Source of the DNA: Deltaproteobacteria bacterium
GTDB lineage: Bacteria > Desulfobacterota > Dissulfuribacteria > Dissulfuribacterales > DYLC01
Direction: 5' to 3'
Length of the DNA stretch: 64,000 bases
NCBI GenBank assembly: GCA_028695735.1
Contig: JAQVIJ010000001.1
Coordinates: 175,081 to 239,080 of the forward strand
Shown piece by piece: positions 11,028-52,958 of the stretch. The notes below the pieces were generated by a model. It saw nothing but the letters and a program-made list of their open reading frames with translations, did no database searches and was not told where the DNA came from. How positions within the stretch are numbered: position 1 is the first letter of the stretch; every line of letters starts with the position of its first letter. The position numbers and the translations under genes are program-made.

Positions 11028-11036
11028 AACCGTTTG

Positions 11037-11348: not shown

Positions 11349-11349
11349 A

Positions 11350-32791: not shown

Positions 32792-33501
32792 ACATCGCCA
32801 TTATTACCGCACGAGGCGGCTCCAAACGCATACCCAGAAAGAACATTCGAGACTTCTGCGGCAGGCCCATTATCTCCTACAGCATCGAGACCGCCATTAC
32901 CTCAGGCCTGTTTCAGGAGGTGATGGTCTCCACAGATGACGAGGAGATCGCTGAAATCGCCAAAAGATATGGGGCATCCGTGCCGTTTATGCGCAGTTTA
33001 GAGACAGCCAATGACTATGCCACCACATCTGATGTGCTGGTAGAGGTGCTGACAAATTACAAACAAATGGGCCGCAATTTTGACTATGGCTGCTGTATAT
33101 ATCCCACTGCTACCCTTCTCACTGTCAGTACATTAAAACAGGCCTGGGATATTTTACAAAATGACTCTATCATTCATAGTGTATTTCCAATCATTCAATT
33201 TCCATCAGCTATTCAAAGGGCCTTACGCAGAAATACTGATGGCATAGTGAGCATGTTCAATCCAGAATATATGAATACACGCACTCAAGATTTGGAAAAG
33301 GCCTATTATGATGCAGGGCAATTCTACTGGTTTCATGTCAACACATTTATGGAAAACAAAAGAATTTATGGCGATAAAAGCTATGGTCTAATTATAGATG
33401 AAATGGATGCCCAAGACATAGACAATGAATCTGACTGGAAGATTGCTGAATTCAAATATCAATACAGATTATTGCAGACCAAACAAATGGAGGAAGTATG
33501 A
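32788..33501 (+). CDS. pseF: Pseudaminic acid cytidylyltransferase
   Basis: PseF activates pseudaminic acid to the CMP-sugar. From the Met at 32788, overlapping the DedA stop, it has 237 residues. It starts MNIAIITARGGSKRIPRKNI, the nucleotide-binding signature of CMP-sialate synthetases, followed by GRPIISYSIETA and MVSTDDEEIAEIAKRYGA. The 3' half becomes clearly A/T-rich. The next three genes are pathway partners. A sialic-acid-type synthetase is the alternative, but the neighbours favour pseudaminic acid. Confidence 0.92.
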   Translation: MNIAIITARGGSKRIPRKNIRDFCGRPIISYSIETAITSGLFQEVMVSTDDEEIAEIAKRYGASVPFMRSLETANDYATTSDVLVEVLTNYKQMGRNFDYGCCIYPTATLLTVSTLKQAWDILQNDSIIHSVFPIIQFPSAIQRALRRNTDGIVSMFNPEYMNTRTQDLEKAYYDAGQFYWFHVNTFMENKRIYGDKSYGLIIDEMDAQDIDNESDWKIAEFKYQYRLLQTKQMEEV

Positions 33502-34118
33502 CTAATTTTACAACTGAGCAAGAAAAATTTTGGGCAGGCGAATTTGGAAATGAATATATTCAGCGAAATAGAGACGCAAAGATTATAGCAAACAACTTAG
33601 CCTTTTTTGCTAAGGCATTACAGCATACAACTGAAATCAAAAGCTGCATAGAATTCGGAGCAAACATAGGGCTAAATCTAATAGCATTAAAACAACTTTG
33701 CCCTGATATTCAACAATATGCCATAGAAATCAATTCAAAGGCAGCTAAACAGCTAAAAGATGTCATAGGAGAGGATAATGTATTCGAAGGTTCAATTCTA
33801 CAATACCAACCCCAAAAGCAATTTGATTTGGTTTTATCAAAAGGTGTGTTGATTCACATCAATCCAGATGTATTGGATTCAGTCTATGAAAAGCTATATT
33901 CATCCTCACAAAAATATATCTTACTTGCAGAATATTACAATCCAACGCCGGTCAATATTCCATATCGAGGCCATACAGACAAACTGTTTAAGCGGGATTG
34001 GGCAGGCGATCTCCTTACAAAATACACAGACCTACAACTCATAGACTATGGCTTTGTCTATCGAAGGGACCGCTTTCCTCAAGACGATCTCCACTGGTTC
34101 TTGCTGAAAAAGGCCTGA
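33498..34118 (+). CDS. Pseudaminic acid biosynthesis-associated methylase
   Basis: A 206-residue SAM-dependent methyltransferase-like protein. The SAM site is CIEFGANIGLNLIALKQLCP (about residues 51-70), and LVLSKGVLIHINPD follows. The start FTTEQEKFWAGEFGNEYIQRN and the NPTPVNIPYRGHTDKLFKRDWAG segment are distinctive of the methylase found in pseudaminic acid clusters. Its acceptor is not known; a methylated sugar is the likely product. The gene is strongly A/T-rich compared with its flanks. It overlaps pseF by 4 nt. Confidence 0.9.
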   Translation: MTNFTTEQEKFWAGEFGNEYIQRNRDAKIIANNLAFFAKALQHTTEIKSCIEFGANIGLNLIALKQLCPDIQQYAIEINSKAAKQLKDVIGEDNVFEGSILQYQPQKQFDLVLSKGVLIHINPDVLDSVYEKLYSSSQKYILLAEYYNPTPVNIPYRGHTDKLFKRDWAGDLLTKYTDLQLIDYGFVYRRDRFPQDDLHWFLLKKA

Positions 34119-34122
34119 TTCC

Positions 34123-35169
34123 ATGCTGTTTCTGATTCGAGCCGATGCCTCCTTCAGAATAGGCAGCGGTCACATCATGCGATGTCTGACCCTTGCCCAG
34201 GGCCTTGAGAAAGAAGGCCACAAATGCATCTGGTTCTGTCGCAGGCGCCCAGGTCATCGCATTGAGCTGCTGAAAAATCGAGGCCTTGAGGTCATAGAAC
34301 TCCCCTTTTACGACGACAGCCAGGCCGAAAATCCCTTTTTCATAGGCGGAGAGGTGAGTGAAGAGATTTGCGCCATAAAAACAGTCATAAAGTCCCATTC
34401 ATCTGATTTTATTACATTTATCTCGGATCACTATGGCATTGGAAAGGATTATGAAACGAGGCTGCGGCCCCTTGTTCAGCGCATCTTCGTCATAGATGAC
34501 CTGCAAGAGGCCAGCCATGACTGCGACATCCTCTTAAATCAAAATTACCTCAAGGAGGTCAAGTATGCTCAACTGGTGCCACGCCACTGCCAGGTGCTTT
34601 TAGGCCCGAAGTATGCCCTGTTGCGAAAGGAGTTTTGGGAGGCCCGTCAAAAACTGGCACAGGCACCTGGCCCCCTGTCTTTTTCCAAGGTCCTTGTGTT
34701 TTTTGGGGGAATGGACACTCAAAACCACACCCTAAAGGCCGTACAAGCCCTCATGGCCACACATGAGCCCTTTAGCCCCGAGGTGGTAGTGGGCAAGGAG
34801 CATCCGTCTCTGAATCTGCTGAGAGACCTGCTGTCCTCCATTCATGACGCTCATCTGCATGTGGAGACTCAGCAAATGGCAGAGGTGATGCTGAAATGTG
34901 GTTGGTATTTAGGCTCAGGCGGCACCATCACATGGGAACGCATGTGTTTGGGCTTAACCGGCATCGTAATCCCTGTGGCAGCCAATCAATTGGCCTTTAC
35001 ACAGGCATTGGTAAGGGATGGTTACCAACTGATGCTGAATCACATCGAGGAATTGAATAAAAGCCTGTTAAATAAGCTTGCCAATCAATTGGAATTCATG
35101 CGGCATAAATGTATGGAATTAGTAGATGGAATGGGCACAAAAAGGGTAATTCAATGTCTATTAAATTAA
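34123..35169 (+). CDS. pseG: UDP-2,4-diacetamido-2,4,6-trideoxy-beta-L-altropyranose hydrolase
   Basis: PseG removes UDP in pseudaminic acid synthesis. The 348-residue GT-B-fold protein has FLIRADASFRIGSGHIMRCLTLAQGL at the start with the active-site His, FISDHYGIGKDYE, VIDDLQEASHDCDILLNQN, and GSGGTITWERMCLGLTG near the end. It lies 4 nt after the methylase gene and overlaps pseH by 16 nt. Confidence 0.93.
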   Translation: MLFLIRADASFRIGSGHIMRCLTLAQGLEKEGHKCIWFCRRRPGHRIELLKNRGLEVIELPFYDDSQAENPFFIGGEVSEEICAIKTVIKSHSSDFITFISDHYGIGKDYETRLRPLVQRIFVIDDLQEASHDCDILLNQNYLKEVKYAQLVPRHCQVLLGPKYALLRKEFWEARQKLAQAPGPLSFSKVLVFFGGMDTQNHTLKAVQALMATHEPFSPEVVVGKEHPSLNLLRDLLSSIHDAHLHVETQQMAEVMLKCGWYLGSGGTITWERMCLGLTGIVIPVAANQLAFTQALVRDGYQLMLNHIEELNKSLLNKLANQLEFMRHKCMELVDGMGTKRVIQCLLN

Positions 35170-35621
35170 GACAGGCTGAAGAAAGAGATGCGGCAATACT
35201 TTATGAATGGGCAAATGATACGCTCACAAGAAAATACTCTTTTCACACTAATGCTATTACATGGGATGAACACATTCAATGGTTTAATACAAAACTCCTT
35301 GACAATAACTCAAGAATCTTCATAATGGAAGTTGAACAAGAACCAGTTGGTCAGATTCGATTTGACTTTAGGAATGAGAATACCATTTACATAAGTTATG
35401 CAATAGCTCCAAGACATCGCGGTAAGGGTTATGGCACTCAATTAGTGAAATTGGGTATTGAAACAATAAAAAAATTGGCTCAAAAACGAAAGGTCAATCT
35501 TATTGCTGAAGTAAAAAAAGACAATATCGCCTCTTGCCGCATCTTTGAAAAACACCAATTTACCTTAATCAAAAGCACAGATGATTGTATGACATATGGC
35601 CTTACATTAGAGGGACATTAG
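35154..35621 (+). CDS. pseH: UDP-4-amino-sugar N-acetyltransferase PseH (GNAT)
   Basis: A 155-residue GNAT enzyme from the start MSIKLRQAEERDAAILYEWAND. It has the acetyl-CoA loop APRHRGKGYGTQLVKLG and the C-terminal NIASCRIFEKHQFT. PseH N4-acetylates the amino sugar before PseG acts. The assignment rests on the GNAT fold plus its place between pseG and pseI. The gene is A/T-rich. An upstream ATG would add 15 residues from the pseG overlap. Confidence 0.88.
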   Translation: MSIKLRQAEERDAAILYEWANDTLTRKYSFHTNAITWDEHIQWFNTKLLDNNSRIFIMEVEQEPVGQIRFDFRNENTIYISYAIAPRHRGKGYGTQLVKLGIETIKKLAQKRKVNLIAEVKKDNIASCRIFEKHQFTLIKSTDDCMTYGLTLEGH

Positions 35622-35637
35622 AAAATTGTCATTTTAT

Positions 35638-35666
35638 TCACAACTGCATTGCTCGTGGGCGAAAAG
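35638..35666. repeat. Dispersed intergenic repeat, copy without hairpin
   Basis: TCACAACTGCATTGCTCGT followed by GGGCGAAAA. It is the partner of 28760-28815 but lacks the 29-nt hairpin between the two conserved blocks. The GAAAATT just upstream also resembles the other copy. Confidence 0.75.
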
Positions 35667-35730
35667 GCTAATTTCTCAATGTATCATATAGGTTTCCAGT
35701 TAAAATATAGAAGTCAAGAGGTATCTTGCC

Positions 35731-36774
35731 ATGTCTCCACAAGAAGTCATGAAACTCATCGAACAAGCCCAGCCGTTCATCATCGCTGAGATGTCGGCCA
35801 ACCACAACCAATCCCTGGAAAAGGCCTTGCAAATCGTAAACGCAGCAGCGAAGGCCGGTGTCAATGCCCTGAAACTCCAGACCTACACCCCTGACACCCT
35901 CACCATCGACAAGGCAGACGGCGAGTTCTTCATACACGACTCAAAAAGCCTTTGGCAAGGCGAATCCCTCTATAACCTCTATAAAAAGGCCTATATGCCC
36001 TGGGAGTGGCATGAACCCATCTTCAAAAGGTGCAGAGAACAGGGCATCGTACCCTTTAGCACCGCCTTTGACGCCACTTCCGTGGAACTTTTGGAGGCAC
36101 TGGGCGTCGAGCTCTACAAGATCGCCTCCTTTGAGATAGTGGACATTCCACTGATACAAAAAGTAGCCCGCACAGGAAAGCCCATTCTCCTCTCCACAGG
36201 CATGGCCACGGTGGCGGAGATTCATGAGGCGGTATGCGCCATAAGAGAGACCGGCAATGCCCATGTGGTGCTGCTCAAGTGCACCAGCACCTACCCCAGC
36301 TCCCCTGAAAACTCCCATCTGCGCACACTCCCTCACATGCGACAGCTCTTTGACTGCCCTGTGGGCATCTCTGACCACACCCTGGGCATCGGCGTGGCAG
36401 TGGCAGCAGTGGCCCTGGGCGCACAGGTCATTGAAAAGCACTTCACCTTAAGCCGCTCTGAAGGTGGAGTAGATGCCCCCTTCAGCTTAGAGCCTCATGA
36501 GATGCAGGCATTGGTGGAAGAGACACGGCGGGCATGGCAGGCCTTGGGCAGGGTTCACTACGGGCCTTCAAGGGCAGAGGAGGACTCCCTGGTCTTTCGG
36601 CGCTCCCTCTATGCCGTGCAAGACATAGCAGAAGGAGAGGAATTCACGGAAAAGAATGTGCGCAGCATTCGGCCTGGCCATGGCCTTGCCCCCAAATATC
36701 TGAAAATCCTCTTGGGCAGGCGGGCAAGAAGGGCCATTCAAAGAGGAGAGCCCATCACCTGGGAGATGTTTTAG
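35731..36774 (+). CDS. pseI: Pseudaminic acid synthase
   Basis: PseI condenses 6-deoxy-AltdiNAc with phosphoenolpyruvate. The 347-residue protein has the NeuB fold: PFIIAEMSANHNQSLEKALQ, ALKLQTYTPDT, LLSTGMATVAEI, LLKCTSTYPSSPE and VGISDHTLGIGVAVAA. A C-terminal SAF/antifreeze-like domain (about residues 285-345) has RRSLYAVQDIAEGEEFTEKNVR. The TYTPDT motif favours PseI over NeuB or LegI. It lies 109 nt after pseH across a repeat, and is richer in G/C than pseH. GAGGT precedes the ATG. Confidence 0.93.
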   Translation: MSPQEVMKLIEQAQPFIIAEMSANHNQSLEKALQIVNAAAKAGVNALKLQTYTPDTLTIDKADGEFFIHDSKSLWQGESLYNLYKKAYMPWEWHEPIFKRCREQGIVPFSTAFDATSVELLEALGVELYKIASFEIVDIPLIQKVARTGKPILLSTGMATVAEIHEAVCAIRETGNAHVVLLKCTSTYPSSPENSHLRTLPHMRQLFDCPVGISDHTLGIGVAVAAVALGAQVIEKHFTLSRSEGGVDAPFSLEPHEMQALVEETRRAWQALGRVHYGPSRAEEDSLVFRRSLYAVQDIAEGEEFTEKNVRSIRPGHGLAPKYLKILLGRRARRAIQRGEPITWEMF

Positions 36775-39659: not shown

Positions 39660-40424
39660 CTATGTAACGGTTCTGCGCACCGGAATGCCCTGGCTGAAGA
39701 GAAAATCCCTGACCTGCGCAGGTGTCTGCTCAGTAAAGTGAAAGATACTGGCAGCGGCCACGGCATTTGCCCCGTGTTGTATGGCCTCAAGCATGTGTTG
39801 TGGGCTTCCTGCCCCTCCTGATGCGATCACAGGAATGCTGACCTGCCTTGTCACCTCTTCGATGAGCTTGAGGTCATAGCCCTGCATGGTTCCGTCTAAC
39901 TCAATGGATGTGATGAGTATCTCGCCTGCGCCAAGCCCCTCACAAAATCGCGCCCATTCACCAGGCCGCTTGCCTGTTGGCAGTCTTCCGCTGTGGCTAT
40001 AACACTCGTAATCGCCATTTGCGGTCTTACGGGCATCTATGCTCACAACCACGCACTGTGAGCCAAACCTCTTGGCCGCCTCGGAGATGAGGTTTGGCTG
40101 CTCATAGGCAGCGCTGTTGATGGAGACCTTGTCTGCCCCACACCGCAACAGCCGCCTTATCTGCTCCAGATTGCGAATACCGCCACCTATGGTCACTGGC
40201 ACAAAACATTCCTGCGCCCAATCGGCTATGGTCTCATAATCCGGCTCTCGCATCTCGTCAGTGGCAGTGATATCCAGGAGAATCAATTCATCCACCTCTC
40301 GCATGGTATAGACCTTTATGGCTGGAAGCACCGTGCCAACCCTGCGCCAGGAGTCAAAACCTATGCCCTTTACCAGCCCTATATTCTTCCAAAGCAAGGT
40401 GGGAATAATTCGTGTCTTAAGCAT
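39660..40424 (-). CDS. HisF-like cyclase subunit of the sugar amidotransferase system
   Basis: A 254-residue TIM barrel of the imidazole-glycerol-phosphate synthase F family: TRIIPTLLWKNIGLVKG, ELILLDITATDE, PVTIGGGIRNLEQIRRLL, GADKVSINSAAYE, VVVSIDARK, PVIASGGAGSPQHM. It differs from histidine HisF at the start (PTLLWKNIGLVKG instead of PCLDVKDGRVVKG). That form accompanies LPS or flagellin sugar amidotransferases. It follows the HisH-like gene by 1 nt, and no histidine genes are near. It would deliver ammonia to the PseA-type enzyme. Confidence 0.9.
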   Translation of the reverse strand: MLKTRIIPTLLWKNIGLVKGIGFDSWRRVGTVLPAIKVYTMREVDELILLDITATDEMREPDYETIADWAQECFVPVTIGGGIRNLEQIRRLLRCGADKVSINSAAYEQPNLISEAAKRFGSQCVVVSIDARKTANGDYECYSHSGRLPTGKRPGEWARFCEGLGAGEILITSIELDGTMQGYDLKLIEEVTRQVSIPVIASGGAGSPQHMLEAIQHGANAVAAASIFHFTEQTPAQVRDFLFSQGIPVRRTVT

Positions 40425-40425
40425 A

Positions 40426-41043
40426 TCATTTAATCTTCAGAAAATTCTTGAGCAATCGAAGGCCTGCCTTGGAGCTCTTCTCAGGGTGAAATTGAGTGCC
40501 AAGCACAGTGCCTCTTCCCACTACAGATACAAAACTCCCGCAGTAAGGGGTTATTGCCAAGGCATTTTCCTTATCATGTGGCACAAAGTGATAGCTGTGC
40601 ACAAAATAAAAATCTGTGCCCTTCTCAATTCCATCAAACAATGAATGGGGCCCTTGAAAATGGACCTCATTCCAGCCCACATGGGGAATGCGCTCCTTGC
40701 CATGCACAGGCTCAAGCCTAATCACCCTGCCTGGTATCAGGCCAAGCCCTTGAGTCTCTCCTCCTTCCGTGCCCATCTCGGCCAGAAGCTGCATGCCCAG
40801 GCAGATGCCCAAAACAGGCAATCCATCCTTCAAGGCAGCCTGTTTTATGGCCTTGTCCCAGCCCTTTTCCCTTAAGGCCTCCATGGCGTCATGAAAGGCA
40901 CCCACTCCAGGCAGAACAAGGCGTTCGGCATCAGCCATATCAGAAGGGTCATTTGAGATAAAGACATGGGCACCTGCCTCCTCAAATGCCCTGCGCACCG
41001 AGGCCAGATTTCCCATGCCGTAATCTATAATCAAGACAGACAT
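40426..41043 (-). CDS. HisH-like glutaminase subunit of the sugar amidotransferase system
   Basis: A 205-residue class I glutamine amidotransferase. It has the nucleophile elbow PVLGICLGMQLLAEMG (Cys) and the His/Glu pair in VLGTQFHPEKSSKAG, plus IPHVGWNEV. Together with the HisF-like partner it would release ammonia from glutamine. The position between the HisF-like gene and the PseA-like gene, with pseudaminic acid genes nearby, supports a role in forming an acetamidino group rather than in histidine synthesis. Confidence 0.92.
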   Translation of the reverse strand: MSVLIIDYGMGNLASVRRAFEEAGAHVFISNDPSDMADAERLVLPGVGAFHDAMEALREKGWDKAIKQAALKDGLPVLGICLGMQLLAEMGTEGGETQGLGLIPGRVIRLEPVHGKERIPHVGWNEVHFQGPHSLFDGIEKGTDFYFVHSYHFVPHDKENALAITPYCGSFVSVVGRGTVLGTQFHPEKSSKAGLRLLKNFLKIK

Positions 41044-41050
41044 AAACGCC

Positions 41051-42202
41051 TCAAGGGTTGTCGTAGTTGATCTTGGTCAGATTGCCGTATTTGTCTTTGA
41101 CCAGGTTGCCCCTGGCATCGGTCACAAACAACTTTTTATTGGTAAACCTGTCACATATTTTGATGAACTCGTCCACAGTGAGCTCCAGGGGTTCCAATAT
41201 CTTTTCCAGAGGCTTTCCCAGATATGTCCAGGGAAATTTGCCGTCATGCCTTTTGACCAATTCCAGCCCCTCTTCCCTTGTAATGCGGCCACGCCGAATG
41301 TGAAGGGAGGCTATATCAGTGGCCCTGCCAAAACCGAATTTGAGAAACTTGAAGTAATCGTGTATGCCTGTCTGGTGATTGTCCAGATTTTCATAGTTCA
41401 CCACTGAACCCTCCACCGTGGTGTGCCATGTGTTAAAGCCAAAACCTTGAGCCAAAAGGGCATTGGAATAGCCGTCCCACGGCAGGTAATAGCCCAAAAA
41501 AAGCCCTGTGACCCCCACTTGTTTCAACCCCTCGTCAGAGGGATAGGTAAATGGAATCAGGTGCCTCTTCTCAATCCCCTCCACGCCTATGAGGTCAGAG
41601 ACTCGAAGTCCCAGGAGCCCGCCGAACTCCTCGAGCCAGCGGCGGTCCAGGGTGTTGTTTTCGGTGGCCGAGGCAGGGCCGCCGTATTCGTTCTGCGAAT
41701 TCTCGCCCCAGATGATGAGGGGCACACGGAACTGCACTGCTACGCGCACAGGCACCGTAAAGATGGTGACATGTTCGGGCCAGGAGATGTCGCCCACCTG
41801 CATCAGCCCTATGCGATTTAGCTTTCTACGCACTACACGATTGGTGGTCACCTCTATATAGTCCACGCCCAAGGACTTGAGGTTTTCGATGTTGCGTCGA
41901 CCTATCTCTGAAAGGTCGCAGGTGGTGCCGGTCACACACAGGGGGTTCATACCCAGCTCCAGCATCTTTATGGTCTGAAAATGGCTGTCCTTTCCGCCGC
42001 TGACTGGAATGATGCAATCCCAGTTGGAGCCGTCTTTAGAGCGATAACGCTCCAGTATCTCCATCAATTCCTGCCTACGCCGTGCCCAGTCTATAAAAGG
42101 CCGCCTCTCATAGTTTCTACAGGCATTGCACACCCCTTCTTCATCAAAGGACAGATCCGGCTTGGTCTCAGGGAACAGACATTTTTTACAGTAACGTATC
42201 AT
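41051..42202 (-). CDS. pseA: N-acetyl sugar amidotransferase (PseA/WbpG family)
   Basis: A 383-residue protein. An N-terminal Cys cluster CKKCLFPETKPDLSFDEEGVCNAC looks like a zinc site. A PP-loop ATPase core begins CIIPVSGGKDSHFQTIKML (about residues 64-82). NSQNEYGGPASATENN and YYLPWDGYSNA are characteristic of the family. Campylobacter PseA and Pseudomonas WbpG members convert an N-acetyl group to acetamidino using ammonia. With the two downstream His-like subunits it forms a three-gene set. GGGAGG lies about 10 nt before the ATG, at the end of an upstream gene relic. Confidence 0.92.
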   Translation of the reverse strand: MIRYCKKCLFPETKPDLSFDEEGVCNACRNYERRPFIDWARRRQELMEILERYRSKDGSNWDCIIPVSGGKDSHFQTIKMLELGMNPLCVTGTTCDLSEIGRRNIENLKSLGVDYIEVTTNRVVRRKLNRIGLMQVGDISWPEHVTIFTVPVRVAVQFRVPLIIWGENSQNEYGGPASATENNTLDRRWLEEFGGLLGLRVSDLIGVEGIEKRHLIPFTYPSDEGLKQVGVTGLFLGYYLPWDGYSNALLAQGFGFNTWHTTVEGSVVNYENLDNHQTGIHDYFKFLKFGFGRATDIASLHIRRGRITREEGLELVKRHDGKFPWTYLGKPLEKILEPLELTVDEFIKICDRFTNKKLFVTDARGNLVKDKYGNLTKINYDNP

Positions 42203-42337: not shown

Positions 42338-42511
42338 TTAAAGACCAGAGATAGCACCTTGCTCCTTACGAAAAAAGATGGCTCGTGCAGGGCTGGAAGC
42401 CTTACCAAACACATGCCAATTACATAGGTTGCGGTGTCTATGTATCAAGCTGGACAAGACCTCCGCCCCTCCTGCATCATGGCAGACCACGAGGATATTA
42501 TGCCTTTTCAT
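42338..42511 (-). pseudogene. Truncated gene overlapping the maf stop (N-terminal relic)
   Basis: A 57-residue frame beginning MKRHNILVVCHDAGGAEVLS, whose ATG lies inside the last codons of maf. The start has the beta-loop-helix look of a Rossmann or GT-B N-terminus. The overlap with maf is the kind of coupling seen for a real operon gene. The frame stops after GKASSPARAIFFRKEQGAIS, far too early for such a fold. The same frame, after one TAA, continues as the GNAT relic, so a deletion seems to have joined two genes. Confidence 0.6.
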
Positions 42512-45500
42512 GGGCCAAGATCGCCTCTTTCACGGCCTCAAAGACTTCCTGCCAGTCATTGCGGCTACTTTGTCTAAAGAGTTGCATATTGCTGTACCAC
42601 GGGGTCTGCCTCGTGTTAATGCCCCATCTCCAGTCAGGCACATAGGCCAAAAGGGTCCAGACCTTCGGCCGTTTTTGGCCGTCAGGCGGCAGTATGGCGC
42701 CTGCCAAATGGGCAATGGAGGTGTCAACTGTTATCACCAGGTCCAAACAACTGACAATAGCGGCTGTATGGGCAAAGTCCACAAGATACGGGGCAAGGTT
42801 GTGCACATTTGCCCGCTCAACCGCAAGGGGCTCACTTTGATACTGTAGGCTGAACCACTGGGTATCAGGAAGCTCAAAAAGCGGCTTAAACATCTCAAAG
42901 GCCACTGAACGCTCTTTGTCCCGATTGTGTTTAGGGTTGCCCTTCCAGACAAAACCAATGCGCAAGGCCTTACCCATGTGCGAAAACAATCGTTCCATCC
43001 GTCCCTTCAGCCCAATATCCACCTTCAGATACCCGTCAGCCAGAGGAAACGGCCTCGAATCCTCCTGTAAATGGCTGGGCAGGTCCAAAAGTGGCACATG
43101 CCAGTCCATATTTTCGCAGGCCAGGGCCATGTGTGACTTCAAGATCACTTGTTCCACGGCCTCCATAGGCTCAAAGAGCCGGGCCAGCTCTGGGCCACAG
43201 GCCAAGGTCACCCGTTTCCCCTGTTCCCTTAAGAGGGGCAGATAGCGCACAAACTGAATGTTGTCGCCCGCTCCCTGTTCCACCCAGACCAGGATATTGC
43301 CAGGCCCGGTCTCTCCTCGCCAGAGCGGCAGGGATACTGGCGCATAAGGAGGGGCCTCCTTGCGTCGCCAGCGCCAGAGATACTCCTGAAATCCCTCCTT
43401 CACCTGATTATTGAGCAATAACACATGGCTGAGATTCCAATGGGCCTCCACCAAATCAGGTGCAAGGGCTACGGCCTTTTTGTAATACTCTATGGCAGCA
43501 GGGATGTCCATGAGCTCTTGATAGCAGTTGGCCATGTTGTAATAGGCCCTGGCCGCATCAAAGCCCTGACCATCGATTAACTCCAGGGCCTTTTGAAAAT
43601 ATGTCAGCGCAGCCTCATATGCCTTGCGATACTCCTTTAGAAGATGCCCCAAGTTGTTATATGCCCCTGAATAACTGGAGTCAGACTCTATGACTCGCCT
43701 AAAAAGGGCCTCTGCCTCGTCTATGTGCTTTGTGTCCAGATAGAGACAGGCCAGGTTGTAGAGCACATCCACATTGCCTTCATCGCAACGCAAGGCATTT
43801 TTAAAGGCCTCTTCAGCCTCCATATGGCGATTGAGCCTGCTGTAGGCCACACCCATGTTCATCCAGGCGGTGATGTGACCTGGATGCAATCGCACGGCCT
43901 CCTGGTATCGGGCTATGGCCTCCTCCAGGCGCTCCGCCTTCTGGAGTTGAAGCCCCTCTTGAAAACACCTCTCTGACTGTTCAAGCCCGGCATCCTTCTG
44001 AAAACGCTCCTTAAAGGCCTCGTAGGCCGCCTTGGCGGCCTCGATTTGGCCTGTCTCCAGATAGCAGTCTCCCATCTTCTTAAAGAGCTCTATGCGCTGG
44101 GGCAGGGCCAGAAGACAGCGCTCGTAGGCGGCAATGGCGCCTTCATAGTCCTGGGATTCCACCAGTGCATCGCCCAGTTCCTGCCAGAGCACAGCGGTTT
44201 CAGGCTCCAGGCCCACAGCCTCTGTGAGCAGTTGAATGCCCTCCTCCATTCGGTTGTTTTCCATGAGGACCCGTGCCAAGAAGGCCAGGCGCCTGCCATT
44301 TCCTTGGGCCTCTGCCATGGCCTGAGGCAGGACATCGGCCAGGGCATTCAAGTCCTCCAGCCTGTAAAAGACTTGGGCTGATAAAGAGGCATGGCCATTT
44401 AGCGGCAAAAGGGGAGTCCAGGCCTGAAGTATGGAGGAGGCCTTTTCGGCATTGTCTTCCACCAGGGCATTTAAACGCCCCTCGTACTGAGGCCAGACCT
44501 CTGTCTTCAGGGCCGAAACGGCCTTGGCTGCCTTTAAGGTGCATATGCGCTGAATCCACTGGGCAAGCAGGTGTGGGTACTTTTCACCCCAGAGCAGGTA
44601 TTCGCCGTCCGGCTGGGCCACATATTCCCTGTGACTGGTCAGACGCAGCCAGGGTGCGGCCGCAAGCTCCCGCAGATGATCGACCTCCTCATTCAGGGAC
44701 GCATTCAATTGCACAGCCCTGTTCCAATGTACCTCCGCCTCTTCAAAGTTTAAGAGCCCGGCCAGCACAAACCCCATGAGGGCATTGGCGGTGGCCTCTT
44801 CCGGCACTGACTGCAATATCTCTTTTAAGACCCCTTGAGCCAAGACCAGGTCCTCTGATTGCACATAGAGTTTGGCCAACTCCAGGCGGCTTGCCAGGGC
44901 ATCTTCTGGGCTTTTGGCCTTGGAAATGGCCGTTAAGAGCCGATCCTCTTCATTCAATCTGTGCTCCAGGTCCTTCATAAGGCCCTGATACAGCCCCAAG
45001 ACCTCCAAACGCTTCTCCTGGACCATGAGCAGCCGTTCCAGCTCGGCCTTCAGCCAGGCAAGATACCCCTGCTCCTCACGAATGCGCTCATTTTGGTATT
45101 TGATTTTGTCATTTTCCTGAAGCATGTTGTAGGTGAGCTCCAGGACCTGGTTCCAGAGCTCATTATAGCCGTCGGTCTTGTTGTTGAGCCTGTCCAATTG
45201 AATCATCTCATTTCGAATAGGAGCAGGCAGGTCCTCCAGAGACCTGACGATTACACCCTTTTCCAACAGGTCATCTATGCGTTTCAGCCCGCCTGACAAG
45301 AGCCTTTTGGCCTTTTTCACCTGTTCCAACACATCCCTGCACAGAGACAGGCTCCTTTTGCAGTAGGATGAGATTTGGCTATTCTGCCACGGCTTATGGC
45401 TGGCTATGGTCTCTTCCAGGAGGGCATGGAAATCAAATTCCTCGGTCATGAACTCTTGAATGACCTCGGCCAGGGGCATGACGCGAGTGCCGGCGATGTG

Positions 45501-46859
45501 TGCCCCACGGGCAGTGGCGTTGATGATGGGCACAGGGCTCTGAGCCACGATCTCCTCAAACTGTTGTTTAAGGCTCATCAAACCCCGATCTGTGGGGATA
45601 TCCTCGCCCGTAATAGACTTGACATAATATATCTCTTTGTCTTTTGGCAGGCCCTTTTCATGGAATATGACACCGGATGCATGGTCAGAACCAGTGGTCT
45701 TGGTGTAGGCCAGGTCCTGGCCCACCAGCACGATGGGCGAGGCCTCCATGAGATGGGCAAGGCCGACGGAGAGGTGCGCCACTGACAGAAGGGGCGGCAG
45801 AAGGTGCCGAACACCCAACTGTTGAATCATCCACATGTGAGGAATGTCTTCATTAAAGGCGTAAAAGATGTGTTGAGCGGGCAGGCGCTTGGGAATAAGC
45901 GGGCATACCTTTATGGTGATGGCCAGGGCGAAAGACAACCGGGATGCGAGAAACGGCGCCACCTTTTCAAAGTTGGCGTCCTCCATGTCCAGAGAGGCGA
46001 TGAAGTCAGGCACGATGCCGTTTTTCAGCAGGGTTGGAAGTGCGGAATCCACTGCAAAGATGGCGCATCTGCCCACGGCCTTTTGAATGTCCGGTATGCT
46101 CATGTCCAAAGAGGGCCCGGCCGCTACAAGCAGGGCAGGACGGCCCTTCAATAATCCCTTGAGTATATCTGTGTTGGTGGCATGACGAATATTTGTGAGA
46201 TTGGCCAACCTGTTTTTTACAAAGGTCTCGCCATAATAATTAGTGGTGCTGCCCATGGCATTGATCTTGTTCAGGAGCTGAAACACCCGGTCATTTGTCT
46301 CCTCGTACAACCGTGTCTGCCAGGAGAAGCTGGGCTGGTGCTTGAGGATGTGCGTGTCTGAGATGGCCACCTCCCTGCCCAGCTCCCGTTCCATACGAAC
46401 CGGGTCCCAATCCCCCACATATAAAAAGGTCTTGGCCGAGCCCAAAAGGGGTGTGAGGTCCACATGGCGCAGGGCAATACAAAATATATCAAGAGATGGC
46501 TCCACTATGGCCAGTTTTGCTATGGCAGGTCTCTCTCTTAAAATGAGAAGGGGGCCGTAACCCAGGCCCATACCCACAAAGATCACCACACCCGATGCAT
46601 CCTCTTTGACCGTCTGAAAGTGAACGGCCGCACTGCTCCAGGGGTCGTCGTTGTCATAGGCCAAAAATGCGGCGCCGTTTGAGAGCTGGTAGCGCAGGTT
46701 CGCAAGACCATTGGCGCTCTTGAGCACCTCACCGTCAAAAACCGGTCTATGCTGTTCCACCAAGGCGTGAATATGGGGAAATCGTTGTTTGAGCAGGGCA
46801 AGATTTGCCTGGAAAAGGGCGGAATCGCCTGAAAAATCCATAGACACCATAGAACCCAT
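42498..46859 (-). CDS. maf: Motility accessory factor (flagellin glycosyltransferase) fused to TPRs and a second transferase domain
   Basis: A 1453-residue protein. Residues about 1-230 are the Maf N-terminal region (VVIFVGMGLGYGP, VEPSLDIFCIAL). Residues about 205-420 hold the MAF/DUF115 core with PALLVAAGPSLDMSIPDIQK and FAVDSALPTLLKNGIVPDF. A helical segment (about 480-650) is probably coiled coil. Residues about 690-1165 carry TPRs such as AWMNMGVAYSRLNRHMEAEE. The last 290 residues resemble the GT9-like domain of TPR transferases (NILVWVEQGAGDNIQFVRYL, LRIGFVWKGNPKH, DLVITVDTSIAHLAGA). Maf proteins move CMP-pseudaminic or legionaminic acid to flagellin. AGGAG precedes the ATG. It is divergent from fliC. 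Confidence 0.92.
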   Translation of the reverse strand: MGSMVSMDFSGDSALFQANLALLKQRFPHIHALVEQHRPVFDGEVLKSANGLANLRYQLSNGAAFLAYDNDDPWSSAAVHFQTVKEDASGVVIFVGMGLGYGPLLILRERPAIAKLAIVEPSLDIFCIALRHVDLTPLLGSAKTFLYVGDWDPVRMERELGREVAISDTHILKHQPSFSWQTRLYEETNDRVFQLLNKINAMGSTTNYYGETFVKNRLANLTNIRHATNTDILKGLLKGRPALLVAAGPSLDMSIPDIQKAVGRCAIFAVDSALPTLLKNGIVPDFIASLDMEDANFEKVAPFLASRLSFALAITIKVCPLIPKRLPAQHIFYAFNEDIPHMWMIQQLGVRHLLPPLLSVAHLSVGLAHLMEASPIVLVGQDLAYTKTTGSDHASGVIFHEKGLPKDKEIYYVKSITGEDIPTDRGLMSLKQQFEEIVAQSPVPIINATARGAHIAGTRVMPLAEVIQEFMTEEFDFHALLEETIASHKPWQNSQISSYCKRSLSLCRDVLEQVKKAKRLLSGGLKRIDDLLEKGVIVRSLEDLPAPIRNEMIQLDRLNNKTDGYNELWNQVLELTYNMLQENDKIKYQNERIREEQGYLAWLKAELERLLMVQEKRLEVLGLYQGLMKDLEHRLNEEDRLLTAISKAKSPEDALASRLELAKLYVQSEDLVLAQGVLKEILQSVPEEATANALMGFVLAGLLNFEEAEVHWNRAVQLNASLNEEVDHLRELAAAPWLRLTSHREYVAQPDGEYLLWGEKYPHLLAQWIQRICTLKAAKAVSALKTEVWPQYEGRLNALVEDNAEKASSILQAWTPLLPLNGHASLSAQVFYRLEDLNALADVLPQAMAEAQGNGRRLAFLARVLMENNRMEEGIQLLTEAVGLEPETAVLWQELGDALVESQDYEGAIAAYERCLLALPQRIELFKKMGDCYLETGQIEAAKAAYEAFKERFQKDAGLEQSERCFQEGLQLQKAERLEEAIARYQEAVRLHPGHITAWMNMGVAYSRLNRHMEAEEAFKNALRCDEGNVDVLYNLACLYLDTKHIDEAEALFRRVIESDSSYSGAYNNLGHLLKEYRKAYEAALTYFQKALELIDGQGFDAARAYYNMANCYQELMDIPAAIEYYKKAVALAPDLVEAHWNLSHVLLLNNQVKEGFQEYLWRWRRKEAPPYAPVSLPLWRGETGPGNILVWVEQGAGDNIQFVRYLPLLREQGKRVTLACGPELARLFEPMEAVEQVILKSHMALACENMDWHVPLLDLPSHLQEDSRPFPLADGYLKVDIGLKGRMERLFSHMGKALRIGFVWKGNPKHNRDKERSVAFEMFKPLFELPDTQWFSLQYQSEPLAVERANVHNLAPYLVDFAHTAAIVSCLDLVITVDTSIAHLAGAILPPDGQKRPKVWTLLAYVPDWRWGINTRQTPWYSNMQLFRQSSRNDWQEVFEAVKEAILAHEKA

Positions 46860-47138: not shown

Positions 47139-49547
47139 ATGGCACTTCGTATTAACACCAACATTTCGGCCCTTAACTCCCATGCGAACCTGCAAAAGAG
47201 CGATGCATCTCTGAGCAAGTCGCTGGAAAGGCTCTCATCCGGTCTGCGCATCAACCGTTCAGCGGACGATGCAGCCGGTATGTCAATAGCCAACATGCTG
47301 AAATCCCAATCCCTGGGTCTGGGCCAGGCCATCAGGAATGCCAACGATGGTATCAGCATCGTGCAGATCGCAGATGCGGCCCTGGATGAAAGCGTAAGCA
47401 TCCTGAATTCCATCAAGCAAAAGGCGGTTCAGGCTGCCCAAGACGGTCAGACCCTGGAGTCCCGTAAGGCCATTCAGGCGGATATCAACAAACTCTTGAA
47501 GGAGATGAATGATATCGCCCAGACCACCGCCTTTAACGGCATGAAGCTCCTGTCCGGTAACTTCATCAACAAGCAGTTCCAGGTGGGTGCATACAGCGGT
47601 CAGACCGTGGACATCAACATCGCCTCGGCGGAGACCACCAAGATCGGCCATGTGACCACCGCAGACCTGCGGCTCACCAACAGCACCGGTGGCGAGGTCC
47701 GTCTGGGCATCTACTCGGCCCTGCGGGATGCCACAGTGCAGATACAGTCCGTAAACCTGGCCTATGACAACACCAAGGAGCACAGCATGGGTGCCCTGGC
47801 TGCGGCCATCAACCTCAATTCTGACCTCACAGGTGTCACAGCCCAGGCATTTGTCTCCTCCACCAGCAATTCCGCTGTAAAGGCAGGGACGACTGGTACT
47901 GACTTTGCCATAAACGGCGTAGTCATCGGTGCTGTCAGCGTGCAAGGCAACGATGCAACCGGCTCTCTGGCGAATGCCATCAACCAGAAGTCCTCTGAAC
48001 ACGGGGTGACTGCCTCTGTGGATGCACAGGGCTATCTCAAGCTCACATCCAACGACGGCAGGGCCATAAAGGTCACAGGCGATACAGGCACCACCCTGGT
48101 GGGCAGCAATCTGAACACCTTTGGCTACATCCGTCTGTTCCAGATGGGCGCCAATGAGATCAAGATCACAGATGCCACAGACATGGTCTCCCTGAACCTC
48201 ACCGGTGACTTGACCCTAAGTGCTGCTATGTCCACTACCGTGGATTCCACGCTGGTAAAGGGTTCGGTTATTGGTACAGGTTCTGTAATCAGGGCAGGCT
48301 CCACCTTGGGCGTAACATTAGGCGCAGGCGGATTTACTGGAACAGTAACCACCACACAGGACAGCGAGCTCAAGGCAGGCTCTGCATTGGGTTCAGGTTC
48401 TGTCATAAAAGAAGGCACCGTCCTGGGAGGAAGCGCAAAGAACTCCGGTACTGTCACCACCAGCACAGACAGCCTGTTAAAGACAGGCAGCATTCTGACT
48501 GCAGGTACGGTCCTGGCTGCAGGCACCACTGTCACCACAGACATCGCTACCACAGTTGGCACAATCACAGCCGGCACCACCCTGGCATCCGACTACACAA
48601 CCTCTGGTTCCAACACCCTGTTAAATGACATGGTAGTCAAGGCCAATTCCACCTTCGCTGCAGGCAGCACCTTCTTTACCGGCTCCTATGTGGGGGCGAA
48701 TGTCACCTTGGCAGGCGCCAGTACCCTGACTGTGGGCATGACCCTAAAGGCAGGATCACAGATTGTAGGTAGTGACTCGTCAACATCCATCCTGGAAGGC
48801 TCCACCATAGGCGGTGACTTCACCACCTCTACAAGCCTCACCATGACCAGCGACATGATCCTCAAGGCAGGGGCAAATATCGTGACAGCCTCCAGCCTGG
48901 CCAAGGGCTCCACCATAGGCGGGTTGGCTGTCACATCTGCTACAGTAACCCTGGCCTCGGACATGACCCTGGCGGCAGGCAGTATTCTGGCCGCGGACAC
49001 CACCATCAAAAAGGGCACGGTGCTCACGGATGAGATCGTGGCTGCAGGCGGCATTCACTACCAGGCGGGTACGGTGCTCACAGGCGATATAGTCACCGCA
49101 GGCAATAATGTCCTGGATGCCTCCATGACCTTAAAGGCAGGGTCAGCAGTGGCTTCAGGCAGCACCTTTGCAGCTACGGCCACCTCCTCCAGCGGCGCCA
49201 CTGCCTCCACAGCCCTGAGCAATGTGCAGAAGAGCAGGCTGTCAGACATAGATGTCACCTCGCAGGAAGGCGCCCAGAAGGGTATCTCCATCGTGGAGGC
49301 GGCCATAGTGGCCATCAACAAGGTCAAGGCGGACCTGGGTTCTGTGCAGAATCAGCTCACCAGCACCGCTGCCAACCTGACCACCACGAAGCTGAATGTC
49401 ACCTCGGCTGAGAGCCAGATTCGGGATGTGGACTTCGCTGAAGAGTCGTCCAACTTCTCGAAGATGCAGATATTGATGCAGGCCGGTACATTCGCCATGG
49501 CCCAGGCCAATGCCAGCTCTCAGAATGTGATGAGACTGCTTCAGTAA
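47139..49547 (+). CDS. fliC: Flagellin with hexapeptide-repeat central domain
   Basis: An 802-residue flagellin, much longer than the usual 280-500. The conserved ends are intact: MALRINTNISALNSHANLQK and the D0/D1 helices (1-170), and SAESQIRDVDFAEESSNFSK to the end (about 690-802). A flagellin-IN-like motif lies at about 246-310 (FAINGVVIGAVSVQG, VTASVDAQGYLKLTS). Residues about 360-680 are a Ser/Thr/Gly-rich domain of about eight degenerate units built from hexads like LKAGSA-LGSGSV-IKEGTV. This resembles a left-handed beta-helix, an unusual exposed domain for a flagellin and rich in O-glycosylation sites. AAGGAGG precedes the ATG. Confidence 0.95.
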   Translation: MALRINTNISALNSHANLQKSDASLSKSLERLSSGLRINRSADDAAGMSIANMLKSQSLGLGQAIRNANDGISIVQIADAALDESVSILNSIKQKAVQAAQDGQTLESRKAIQADINKLLKEMNDIAQTTAFNGMKLLSGNFINKQFQVGAYSGQTVDINIASAETTKIGHVTTADLRLTNSTGGEVRLGIYSALRDATVQIQSVNLAYDNTKEHSMGALAAAINLNSDLTGVTAQAFVSSTSNSAVKAGTTGTDFAINGVVIGAVSVQGNDATGSLANAINQKSSEHGVTASVDAQGYLKLTSNDGRAIKVTGDTGTTLVGSNLNTFGYIRLFQMGANEIKITDATDMVSLNLTGDLTLSAAMSTTVDSTLVKGSVIGTGSVIRAGSTLGVTLGAGGFTGTVTTTQDSELKAGSALGSGSVIKEGTVLGGSAKNSGTVTTSTDSLLKTGSILTAGTVLAAGTTVTTDIATTVGTITAGTTLASDYTTSGSNTLLNDMVVKANSTFAAGSTFFTGSYVGANVTLAGASTLTVGMTLKAGSQIVGSDSSTSILEGSTIGGDFTTSTSLTMTSDMILKAGANIVTASSLAKGSTIGGLAVTSATVTLASDMTLAAGSILAADTTIKKGTVLTDEIVAAGGIHYQAGTVLTGDIVTAGNNVLDASMTLKAGSAVASGSTFAATATSSSGATASTALSNVQKSRLSDIDVTSQEGAQKGISIVEAAIVAINKVKADLGSVQNQLTSTAANLTTTKLNVTSAESQIRDVDFAEESSNFSKMQILMQAGTFAMAQANASSQNVMRLLQ

Positions 49548-49623: not shown

Positions 49624-51003
49624 ATGGCAGGCACTATCAGCTCCCTTGGGCTTGGCTCCAATCTGGGGCTTCAGAACATCCTGGATCAGCTTCGCAAGGC
49701 GGATGAAGCGCCCCTTGAGAACCTGAAGTCCACACAAACGGTCCTCAAGAATCAGATAAATGCCTTTAATGCCCTGAATCAGGGCCTGATGGAGGCCAAA
49801 TCCCATGCCATGACACTGACCCTGGATTCCACCTACATCGCAAGGGGTATCACCTCCAGCGATGAAAAGGTCCTCACGGCCTCTGTGGCAGACGGCGCTG
49901 TCATCGGCTCCCGCAACATCGAGGTCACACGGCTGGCCAGTGCCAGCTCATGGGAGGGTGTAAGTGTTGCCAGTGCGGACACAAAGGTCAACACCAGCGG
50001 CTCCGGCCAGACCTTTTCTTACTCCATAAAAGGCCAGGAAAGAACGCTCACAGTTGCCAACAACACCACCCTGCAAGGCCTGGCAGACCTCATCAACAAC
50101 GACTCAGGCAATTTAGGGGTCACGGCACAACTGGTAAACGACGGGTCGGCCACTCCCTATAAACTCGTGCTCACCGCCAACAAAACCGGTGAGGACAACC
50201 GCATCACCATCAACACGCAGTTGTCAGGCTATGGCCTGACAGAGAAAAACGGGGCAGGCGGTGCATCCCTCAATGCATCCCTCACCCTGGACGGCGTTAC
50301 ATATCAACGCCAAAGCAACAACGGCATAACCGACATTCTAAGCGGCATCACTTTAAATCTGAGGGGTACTGGCACGGCCAACATAACCGTAAACCAGGAC
50401 AACTCAAAAATGACCGATGCCTTAAAGGGCCTTGTGAGCAAATTAAATGAGGTCATTACCAGCGCCAAAACCCAGTCCGGCTACGACAAGGACGGCAAAC
50501 CCAATCTGCTTCAGGGCGTGAGCACCGTAAGGAACATGGGTTACGACCTGATCAACATGCTGGGGGCCAAGATTCAGACTGGCGGCAAAATCACCTCCCT
50601 CTATGACCTGGGGCTGGAGGTAAACAGGGACGGCACCATCTCCTTGAATGAAACCACATTAAACAACGCCATATCAGCCCATCCTGAGGATGTAAAGCTG
50701 TTTTTGGCAGGCGACAGCACCAAGGGCATTAGAGGTCTTGGTGAGGCCATAAACGACAGGCTGCGCGTCATGACCAGGCCGGTTACAGGCACCCTGGCCA
50801 GCGAGCAGACCGCTGCACAGGATCGGATTTCACGTATAGATGCACAGATTACGGCTACAACCGCCAGACTTGACAAGAAATATGACATTTTAGCAAAACA
50901 ATTTTCAGAGCTCGACAAATTCACCAACTCCATGACATCGCTTTCCACCTATCTCACATCGCAGTTCAAGTCATTGTCGGGAAGCTCGTCGAGTTCCAAC
51001 TAA
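49624..51003 (+). CDS. fliD: Flagellar filament cap protein FliD (HAP2)
   Basis: FliD caps the filament and helps flagellin fold at the tip. The 459-residue protein has the N-terminal signature ISSLGLGSNLGLQNILDQLR and TVLKNQINAFNALNQGL, a flagellin-IN-like middle (LTLDGVTYQRQSNNGITDIL), and C-terminal coiled coil ITATTARLDKKYDILAKQFS with the Ser-rich tail. It follows the fliC terminator, with AAAAGGAGTAGGTT before the ATG. Confidence 0.95.
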   Translation: MAGTISSLGLGSNLGLQNILDQLRKADEAPLENLKSTQTVLKNQINAFNALNQGLMEAKSHAMTLTLDSTYIARGITSSDEKVLTASVADGAVIGSRNIEVTRLASASSWEGVSVASADTKVNTSGSGQTFSYSIKGQERTLTVANNTTLQGLADLINNDSGNLGVTAQLVNDGSATPYKLVLTANKTGEDNRITINTQLSGYGLTEKNGAGGASLNASLTLDGVTYQRQSNNGITDILSGITLNLRGTGTANITVNQDNSKMTDALKGLVSKLNEVITSAKTQSGYDKDGKPNLLQGVSTVRNMGYDLINMLGAKIQTGGKITSLYDLGLEVNRDGTISLNETTLNNAISAHPEDVKLFLAGDSTKGIRGLGEAINDRLRVMTRPVTGTLASEQTAAQDRISRIDAQITATTARLDKKYDILAKQFSELDKFTNSMTSLSTYLTSQFKSLSGSSSSSN

Positions 51004-51063: not shown

Positions 51064-51588
51064 ATGAACAGACAGGCCGTGAAGGCATACAAAAGCACGC
51101 AAGTCATGACAACAGACCCATACAAGCTCATTTTGATGCTGTATGACGCCTGCATCAAGAACCTGTTTCAAGCACGGGATGCCGTGACCACAAACGACAG
51201 GGTGCGCCGGGGGGAGACGTTGAGCAAGGCCATCGACATCCTTTCGGAACTGTTCAGCTCCGTGCAGGGCGAGACAGAGCAGGCGAAATTTCTGCGGGGC
51301 CTATACACCGCCATGATGCTGGAGCTGCCCAATGTTAACCTCACAAACGACATCAAGACACTGGATCTGGCCATAAAATATATGGCCCAGCTTCGCAGCA
51401 TCTGGAAGGAACAGGTGATGGCCAAGGGGCCAGGCGCCGAGCCATCTTCTCTGTCTATACAGAATAAACAGGCAGGACCTGCTGCCCACGAAAAAAATGG
51501 CACAAGTTCGGGCGTTAACGACACAGCTATGAGGGGCGGCATTGCAGCCCAGCAGGCTTGTTACAAACCATTTGCATGTAAATTTTGA
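51064..51588 (+). CDS. fliS: Flagellin export chaperone FliS
   Basis: FliS binds the flagellin C-terminus before export. The 174-residue protein has the family core AVKAYKSTQVMTTDPYKLIL then MLYDACIKNLFQARDAV and a four-helix pattern to about residue 125. The last 50 residues are extra, polar and variable (SSLSIQNKQAGPAAHEKNG). It is 60 nt after fliD and overlaps no gene, but the next ATG is 1 nt past its stop. Confidence 0.94.
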   Translation: MNRQAVKAYKSTQVMTTDPYKLILMLYDACIKNLFQARDAVTTNDRVRRGETLSKAIDILSELFSSVQGETEQAKFLRGLYTAMMLELPNVNLTNDIKTLDLAIKYMAQLRSIWKEQVMAKGPGAEPSSLSIQNKQAGPAAHEKNGTSSGVNDTAMRGGIAAQQACYKPFACKF

Positions 51589-51589
51589 G

Positions 51590-51982
51590 ATGACTATTAT
51601 GGATAACAATGCCTTTACTCATTCAGCTATGCAAGAGGCACTGACCAAAATGGCCTCACTCCAGGACGAGATCCTGATACGGATACAGTCAGATGCCGAC
51701 TGGCTTCCAAGGCTTCCTGTGTGGATGGACCAATATACCCAGGCATCTCAACGAATCAAAAATCTGCTGGATTCCTATACATACGATGAACACCGGCAGG
51801 AATATGCTCAACGGGTGCAGTTCCTCATAGAACAGCAGGAAAACATACTTGTCCTGCTACAAAAACAGCGCGATGAACTCGCCACACACATGCGGCAACT
51901 GGAACAGGGCAAAAAGGCCATTCAGGGTTATAGTTCGGGGAACTCCTGTGAAAAACAGGTATTTTTGAGTATGGATACATGA
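51590..51982 (+). CDS. fliT: FliT-like flagellar chaperone
   Basis: A 130-residue helical protein directly after fliS, the usual place of fliT. It has a helical hairpin pattern (QEALTKMASLQDEILIRIQS, then a long C-terminal coiled coil AQRVQFLIEQQENILVLLQK). FliT binds FliD and controls the flagellar master regulator in enterobacteria. Sequence similarity is weak, so the assignment is mainly from position and helical content. The start at 51590 or the ATG at 51599 are both possible; neither has a clear ribosome site. Confidence 0.6.
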   Translation: MTIMDNNAFTHSAMQEALTKMASLQDEILIRIQSDADWLPRLPVWMDQYTQASQRIKNLLDSYTYDEHRQEYAQRVQFLIEQQENILVLLQKQRDELATHMRQLEQGKKAIQGYSSGNSCEKQVFLSMDT

Positions 51983-52518
51983 CCATGCTGGTACAATCGA
52001 CTTCCACTCAAATAGACGACGCCTTCCGGCAGGCGCCTGTAATAATAAGGGAAGAGGCGGCAAAAACAGCCGGCAACCATGAAATTGCCTCTCAAGAGAC
52101 AGCAACAAGGGAAGCTGCGGCCCATGCCCCTGACAAGGCAAAAGACAGCAAGGAAACCGGCCGGCTGGCCATTAAGCCCGATGAAATCACTCTAAACGGA
52201 CAGCAGGTCGGCACTGCGGATGAACGTGGGGGAAACGGCCATGTGGAGAAAAAGACAGCGGCCCTCAAAAATAACACGGCCGAGCCACAGAAAAAACTGA
52301 CACAGCAGGAGATTGAAGACCTGCAAAAAAGGCTTCCGGACACACCTACCACGCGTTTTTCATTCAAATTCGATGAAAAAAGCAAGGAAATGGTGGTGCA
52401 GATCATAGACAAAAAAACCGATAAGGTCATAAGACAGATTCCGCCGGAGGAATTTCTGAAGATCAAGATGGCCTTCAAAGAGCTGATACGAGGGACATTG
52501 CTCGATAAAAAGGCCTGA
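51979..52518 (+). CDS. flaG: FlaG-family protein, copy 1
   Basis: A 179-residue protein. The first 120 residues are polar and variable; the last 55 hold the FlaG domain (RFSFKFDEKSKEMVVQIIDK, DKVIRQIPPEEFLKIKMAFKEL). FlaG affects filament length in several bacteria. The start overlaps the fliT-like gene by 4 nt. The next gene encodes a second protein with the same domain. Confidence 0.9.
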   Translation: MTMLVQSTSTQIDDAFRQAPVIIREEAAKTAGNHEIASQETATREAAAHAPDKAKDSKETGRLAIKPDEITLNGQQVGTADERGGNGHVEKKTAALKNNTAEPQKKLTQQEIEDLQKRLPDTPTTRFSFKFDEKSKEMVVQIIDKKTDKVIRQIPPEEFLKIKMAFKELIRGTLLDKKA

Positions 52519-52547
52519 TAGTATGTTCGCCCTACCAGAATGGAGAG

Positions 52548-52958
52548 ATGATTATGCTTACCATCGATGCAAGGATGCAGACAGATGTAACGGTCGGCCA
52601 GACCAGACCCGCAAGCCAGGAACGGAACCCGGCTGTTGCAACTCAACAACCATCCACAGATAAGGCCGTCTTACAGAAAACAGAGGACATGGCAGCCGCG
52701 GCCGCCGGCGCTGAATCCAAAGGCAAGGCCGGCCTGAAGGAGACGGAAGAAGCAGTCAGGTCTATTCAAAAGGACATGGAGCTCCTGAACACGCGCATAG
52801 CCTTTCGTGTGGACAAAAAAAGCGACGAGATCGTGGTGGATGTGATCGACAAGGACACCAATCAGGTCATAAGACAGATCCCATCAGAGGAGATGCTGCG
52901 GCTCAAGACAGCCTTCAAGGAGTTGATCAAGGGCCTGCTTGTGGATGTGACCGCCTGA
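52548..52958 (+). CDS. flaG: FlaG-family protein, copy 2
   Basis: A 136-residue protein with the same C-terminal domain as its neighbour (IAFRVDKKSDEIVVDVIDKD, NQVIRQIPSEEMLRLKTAFK), about 60 percent alike by eye over that part, and an unrelated shorter Ala/Thr-rich N-terminus. GGAGAG precedes the start. The 3' end overlaps the convergent glycosyltransferase gene by 32 nt. Confidence 0.9.
   Translation: MIMLTIDARMQTDVTVGQTRPASQERNPAVATQQPSTDKAVLQKTEDMAAAAAGAESKGKAGLKETEEAVRSIQKDMELLNTRIAFRVDKKSDEIVVDVIDKDTNQVIRQIPSEEMLRLKTAFKELIKGLLVDVTA

Follow-up and report, generated by a model that had tools for sequence, protein, structure and literature searches.

The only flagellin gene that we detected in this genome encodes an 802-aa protein whose outermost domain is, on good evidence, a left-handed parallel β-helix (LbH), a fold otherwise known from sugar-modifying enzymes. 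In the reading that we prefer, to which we give a probability of about 0.8, this protein is the sole filament protein and combines a Campylobacter-type D2 with an LbH domain in the D3 position, where it serves as a rigid spacer, non-enzymatic and variable in length, that displays sugar. Related sulfur bacteria have the same kind of domain.

A Flagellin with an Enlarged Outer Domain

The gene lies in a window of 64,000 nucleotides, the whole stretch of DNA analyzed, and its start, stop, and the residue-to-base conversion of the first-pass annotation all check out. Its product was rightly called a flagellin, with Pfam Flagellin_N and Flagellin_C at opposite ends of the protein (Table 1) and the filament genes FliD, FliS, and FlaG adjoining the gene. 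Flagellin_IN matches two stretches of D2 (E 2.5e-10), and an Ala/Ser/Thr-rich linker of roughly 20-30 residues precedes the C-terminal core. The best PDB match by sequence is Flagellin A (6x80), which we take to be the Campylobacter jejuni flagellin, and it spans query residues 1-434. When the genome was searched with Flagellin_C, a single ORF of flagellin size was found; the other match was a 301-aa ORF of FlgL-like size, and no second flagellin gene was detected by this search.

Table 1. Features of the flagellin and of its gene neighborhood (positions in the window; residues of the flagellin)
Feature	Positions	Strand	Evidence or remark
Flagellin, 802 aa	47139..49547	+	Pfam matches; only flagellin gene detected in genome
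D0/D1 N-terminal part, residues 1-142	47139..47564	+	Pfam Flagellin_N, residues 5-141, E 1.2e-44
D2, residues 143-354, Campylobacter jejuni FlaA-like	47565..48200	+	Flagellin_IN motif at residues 255-306; 6x80 match
Predicted left-handed parallel β-helix outer domain, residues 355-690, ~17 coils	48201..49208	+	Hexads, profiles, AlphaFold2
Hexads LVKGSV IGTGSV IRAGST, residues 372-389	48252..48305	+	Hexad scan; Pfam Hexapep match here
Hexads LKAGSA LGSGSV IKEGTV, residues 411-428	48369..48422	+	Hexad scan
Hexads LKTGSI LTAGTV LAAGTT, residues 447-464	48477..48530	+	Hexad scan
Hexads VGANVT LAGAST, residues 518-529	48690..48725	+	Hexad scan
Hexads LKAGAN IVTASS LAKGST, residues 575-592	48861..48914	+	Hexad scan
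Hexads LAAGSI LAADTT IKKGTV, residues 611-628, mostly inside best-modeled stretch 615-674	48969..49022	+	Hexad scan, AlphaFold2
Hexads LKAGSA VASGST, residues 665-676, end of helix	49131..49166	+	Hexad scan, AlphaFold2
D1/D0 C-terminal part, residues 716-801	49284..49541	+	Pfam Flagellin_C, E 1.1e-26
PseF, Pse-associated methylase, PseG, PseH-like acetyltransferase, PseI	32755..36774	+	Pseudaminic acid synthesis
WbuZ/HisF2-like, HisH-like, WbuX N-acetyl sugar amidotransferase	39660..42202	-	Putative sugar amidation
Maf/PseD-like flagellin glycosyltransferase (MptE-like), TPR, C-terminal segment weakly like GT9	42498..46859	-	
FliD, filament cap	49624..51003	+	
FliS, flagellin chaperone	51064..51588	+	
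Two FlaG-like genes (51979-52518 and 52548-52958)	51979..52958	+	

The Outer Domain Follows the Hexapeptide Rule

The first-pass annotation had read the variable region as a series of hexads of the LbH type. The three triplets that it quoted are present (residues 411-428, 447-464, and 611-628), and statistics bear out the rule across residues 355-690: with the pattern [LIV]xx[GAND][STACV]x we counted 29 hexads, against a mean of 13.5 in 10,000 shuffles, and 12 adjacent in-register pairs, against a mean of 0.54, neither count being reached by any shuffle (0/10,000 for each). The autocorrelation of aliphatic residues in the same region peaks at lags 6, 12, 18, and 24. The same tests on the neighboring D2 revealed neither a hexad signal nor these peaks. 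Between the clear runs the pattern is degenerate, which counts against our preferred reading, and no tandem repeat is detectable at the DNA level. The proposal of about eight units of 34-50 residues survives in part: the repeats are there and their number is approximate, with seven clear clusters, but the unit is better read as roughly 36 residues (two 18-residue coils) with variable loops.

Sequence comparisons, most of them with a reversed control, point to the same fold. A hexad model whose training set consisted solely of five LpxD enzymes from related bacteria scored this outer domain at z 11.9 and 17 homologues at 5.5-21.8, while the reversed domain scored 0 and D2 gave no signal. Using a profile built from nine homologous outer domains and taking PDB matches at E up to 0.1, we obtained 49 sequences (best E 1e-6), all 49 of them LbH proteins, including LpxD, GlmU, PglD-type acetyltransferases, and γ-carbonic anhydrases; a reversed-sequence profile (seven of the nine domains) found one unrelated capsid protein (E 0.016) and no LbH protein. 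Profile-profile comparison of the outer domain with LpxD gave a probability of 96.9 (E 1.3e-10, 150 columns), as opposed to 0.1 upon reversal. Pfam Hexapep and LbH_EIF2B each match all nine homologous domains at E up to 1; in the domain of this flagellin itself, Hexapep scores above its curated cut-off and LbH_EIF2B below. Bactofilins, which had been suggested as a further family to search, are right-handed β-helices, unrelated to the LbH domain. A left-handed parallel β-helix is thus well supported for the outer domain.

A Structural Model Supports Solenoid Topology

Structure prediction bears out part of this picture. While the full-length protein modeled by AlphaFold2 without an alignment was uninformative (mean pLDDT 39), the outer domain modeled with an alignment of six sequences displays 51 short strands, 46 of the 50 spacings between them being 5-7 residues, and can be read with moderate confidence, as regards topology, as one unbroken solenoid with about 17 coils. 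The mean pLDDT of this model is 53, with half of the residues below 50 and low confidence across the N-terminal half; its confident part is limited to residues 615-674 (about 60 residues, pLDDT 77-88). A Foldseek search of the PDB with this model yielded no significant match (E 0.1 or worse), and the best match in a viral library, an LpxD-like protein with a probability of 0.99, was likewise not significant (E 0.009). Since the model gives topology only and the fold searches were nonsignificant, the handedness of the helix rests on the sequence evidence.

This leaves some room for a β-solenoid that is right-handed, or of another cross-section, similar to antigen 43 or pertactin. Right-handed helices such as antigen 43 do occupy the top of the (nonsignificant) Foldseek PDB results, and what the AlphaFold2 model provides is topology, not handedness. 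However, the coils of right-handed β-helices are longer and less regular than those of LbH proteins, and neither a strict 6/12/18 periodicity nor exclusive LbH matches with negative reversed controls would be expected of them, which makes this alternative improbable. Considerably less probable still is a disordered, mucin-like stretch under a sugar cover, with hexads arising from low complexity. Although Ser and Thr make up 33% of the outer domain and model confidence is low in its N-terminal half, the composition is phase-specific, the shuffle tests argue against chance, and both domain length and hexads are conserved across families at 33-65% identity.

A Probable Structural Role in the Filament

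Across the nine homologous domains, no column of His, Cys, Arg, Glu, or aromatic residues is conserved (0-3 His per domain, Cys absent from all), so that the catalytic His of hexapeptide acyltransferases has no conserved counterpart. As none of the catalytic residue types is conserved, the outer domain probably has a structural role, that of a stiff spacer at the D3 position. An active hexapeptide enzyme carried on the filament, in the way that flagellinolysins display a protease, is hardly credible in view of this lack of conservation, even though all solved proteins similar in sequence are enzymes or enzyme relatives and proteolytic flagellins exist (PMC7643111).

In the filament made of LbH-bearing flagellin that we favor, the gene would encode the main, and only, filament protein, whose D0/D1 core would polymerize as in all flagellins. 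The Campylobacter-type D2 would project outward, and an LbH of about 17 three-sided coils would fill the D3 position, each coil consisting of three hexads with Leu/Ile/Val and Ser/Thr inward and Gly in the turn. At 4.8 Å per coil the helix would be about 8 nm long and, as a rigid spacer, would thicken and stiffen the filament surface and display sugar. We infer this mechanical role, as well as the handedness of the helix, the orientation of the domain on the filament, and its decoration with pseudaminic acid by the adjacent Maf protein. One consideration counts against this arrangement: a single 17-coil solenoid would separate its ends widely, yet both must join D1/D2. If the domain is one such rod, the chain would have to return via the 20-30 residue linker, or the rod would lie along the filament surface. 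We put forward as a tentative and rather doubtful extension that these LbH domains, with about 17 coils here and perhaps 40 where a relative's domain approaches 750 residues, are a previously undescribed, length-tunable class of flagellin outer domain that packs between neighboring subunits into a continuous outer β-sheath, which would make the filament thick, stiff, and glycosylated. Varying the length of a long solenoid from one species to another would offer a simple means of adjusting how thick and how stiff the filament is.

Probable Glycosylation Genes near the Flagellin Gene

Besides the pseudaminic acid (Pse) genes of the window, PseB and PseC were found elsewhere in the genome, so that the pathway is complete across the genome, the PseH-like acetyltransferase being assigned at a score below its curated cut-off. 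Next to the flagellin gene are the putative amidation genes and the Maf/PseD-like TPR fusion, and a Maf-like gene is near the flagellin in 8 of the 15 stretches of relatives that were compared. Since the Pse pathway occurs together with an adjacent Maf transferase, the filament is likely decorated with pseudaminic acid, as judged from gene content. The first-pass annotation had also suggested, in part from Ser/Thr richness, that the domain may be a heavily glycosylated sheath. While the genes keep glycosylation plausible, the compositional argument is weakened, because position 5, where most hexad Ser/Thr are found, points to the interior of the LbH fold; among in-register hexads of all homologues this position is 88% Ser/Thr (a bias that the search pattern itself favors). 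Ser/Thr richness alone is hence weak evidence, and loops and less regular coils are possible glycosylation sites.

Two genes of this neighborhood merit description in their own right. The 1,453-aa Maf fusion, in which an MptE-like Maf domain is followed by a long TPR array and then by a weakly GT9-like C-terminal segment (E 0.0014, below cut-off), could be a two-step flagellin glycosyltransferase. A Pse-associated methylase between PseF and PseG (33498-34118, plus strand) suggests a methylated Pse variant.

Related Flagellins Within and Beyond the Order

Our homologue searches covered genomes of the order and of the phylum; a second phylum search, with another center, covered mostly the same genomes. 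Other genomes of the order encode full-length homologues at 57-75% identity, and with the domain profile homologues were detected in seven of its families and in another four elsewhere in the phylum. These homologues are all flagellins, of 795-1209 aa where complete, with outer domains of about 340-750 residues; the f55 match of the phylum search, by contrast, is an LbH ORF of enzyme size, not a flagellin. As a single query sequence, the outer domain alone had no match in genome contigs, and none was found for it in viral contigs or in plasmids. Giant Synergistota flagellins with large outer domains (L036 and L037, about 965-977 aa) were rejected as not of the hexapeptide-helix type, showing only one adjacent hexad pair.

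Core and outer domain have partly separate histories, since the flagellin of G335 is closer to that of G186 in the core (84-89% identical) but farther in the helix domain (40%) than it is to the flagellin studied here (70-72% and 50%, respectively). Flagellins of about 500 aa without the helix occur in other members of the order; in a tree of the core, most of them group in a clade of their own.

Several relatives depart from the common layout. In G011, a helix-type flagellin (L087:6261-8660) has a strongly diverged D0/D1 core without a canonical N terminus, yet in D2 and in the helix domain it ranks with the sequences most similar to the present flagellin. Tandem flagellins of 1,195 and 1,209 aa in G277 (L074:3724-7308 and 7557-11183), with 28-30 adjacent hexad pairs each, have outer domains roughly double the length of the one described here, and in G019 two helix-type flagellins, 810 and 811 aa in length, likewise stand in tandem (L086:7004-9433 and 10159-12591). 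Further Flagellin_C matches were recorded at G234:C1:2728690-2728932 (ORF of 1,067 aa) and G277:C33:32391-32633 (ORF of 890 aa).

In G006, the only flagellin-sized gene is of the β-helix type and adjoins fliD. Dissulfurimicrobium hydrothermale Sh68, a member of the order Dissulfuribacterales, is motile with a polar flagellum, and the locus tags of its flaA (LGS26_05105) and fliD likewise point to neighboring genes (PMC8780430). G006 is apparently this strain, so that one cultured motile species would swim with a β-helix flagellin. Because a motile species in culture would have this as its sole flagellin, we infer that β-helix flagellins build working filaments, the structure of which would be open to direct testing in culture.

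Comparison with Known Systems

Few known protein regions are as variable as the outer domains of flagellins, and an AlphaFold survey by Fields et al. 2024 (Nat Commun 15:9500) reportedly catalogues hundreds of clusters of them, among which the LbH domain may be included. With this main survey outside the comparison, we found no paper that joins a flagellin with a left-handed β-helix or a β-solenoid. The giant flagellins of Oceanospirillales resemble the present group in having an enlarged outer domain with repeats, the relatives described here reaching 1,209 aa; their description covers DE/DX regions and mentions no β-helix or solenoid (PMC6248924).

Among solved flagellins, Campylobacter jejuni FlaA (6x80) is the best sequence match and shares the core and a D2 with Flagellin_IN. 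The C. jejuni gene is likewise found in a context of pseudaminic acid and Maf genes. In contrast, its outermost domain is unmatched by our hexapeptide-domain profile, and the full-length match stops at query residue 434. LpxD, GlmU, and γ-carbonic anhydrase, for their part, share with the outer domain the hexapeptide rule and profile similarity, but the flagellin domain lacks conserved catalytic residues, is much richer in Ser/Thr, forms a longer helix, and is placed inside a flagellin, where a β-helix of the kind known from such enzymes would stand on the outside of a filament.
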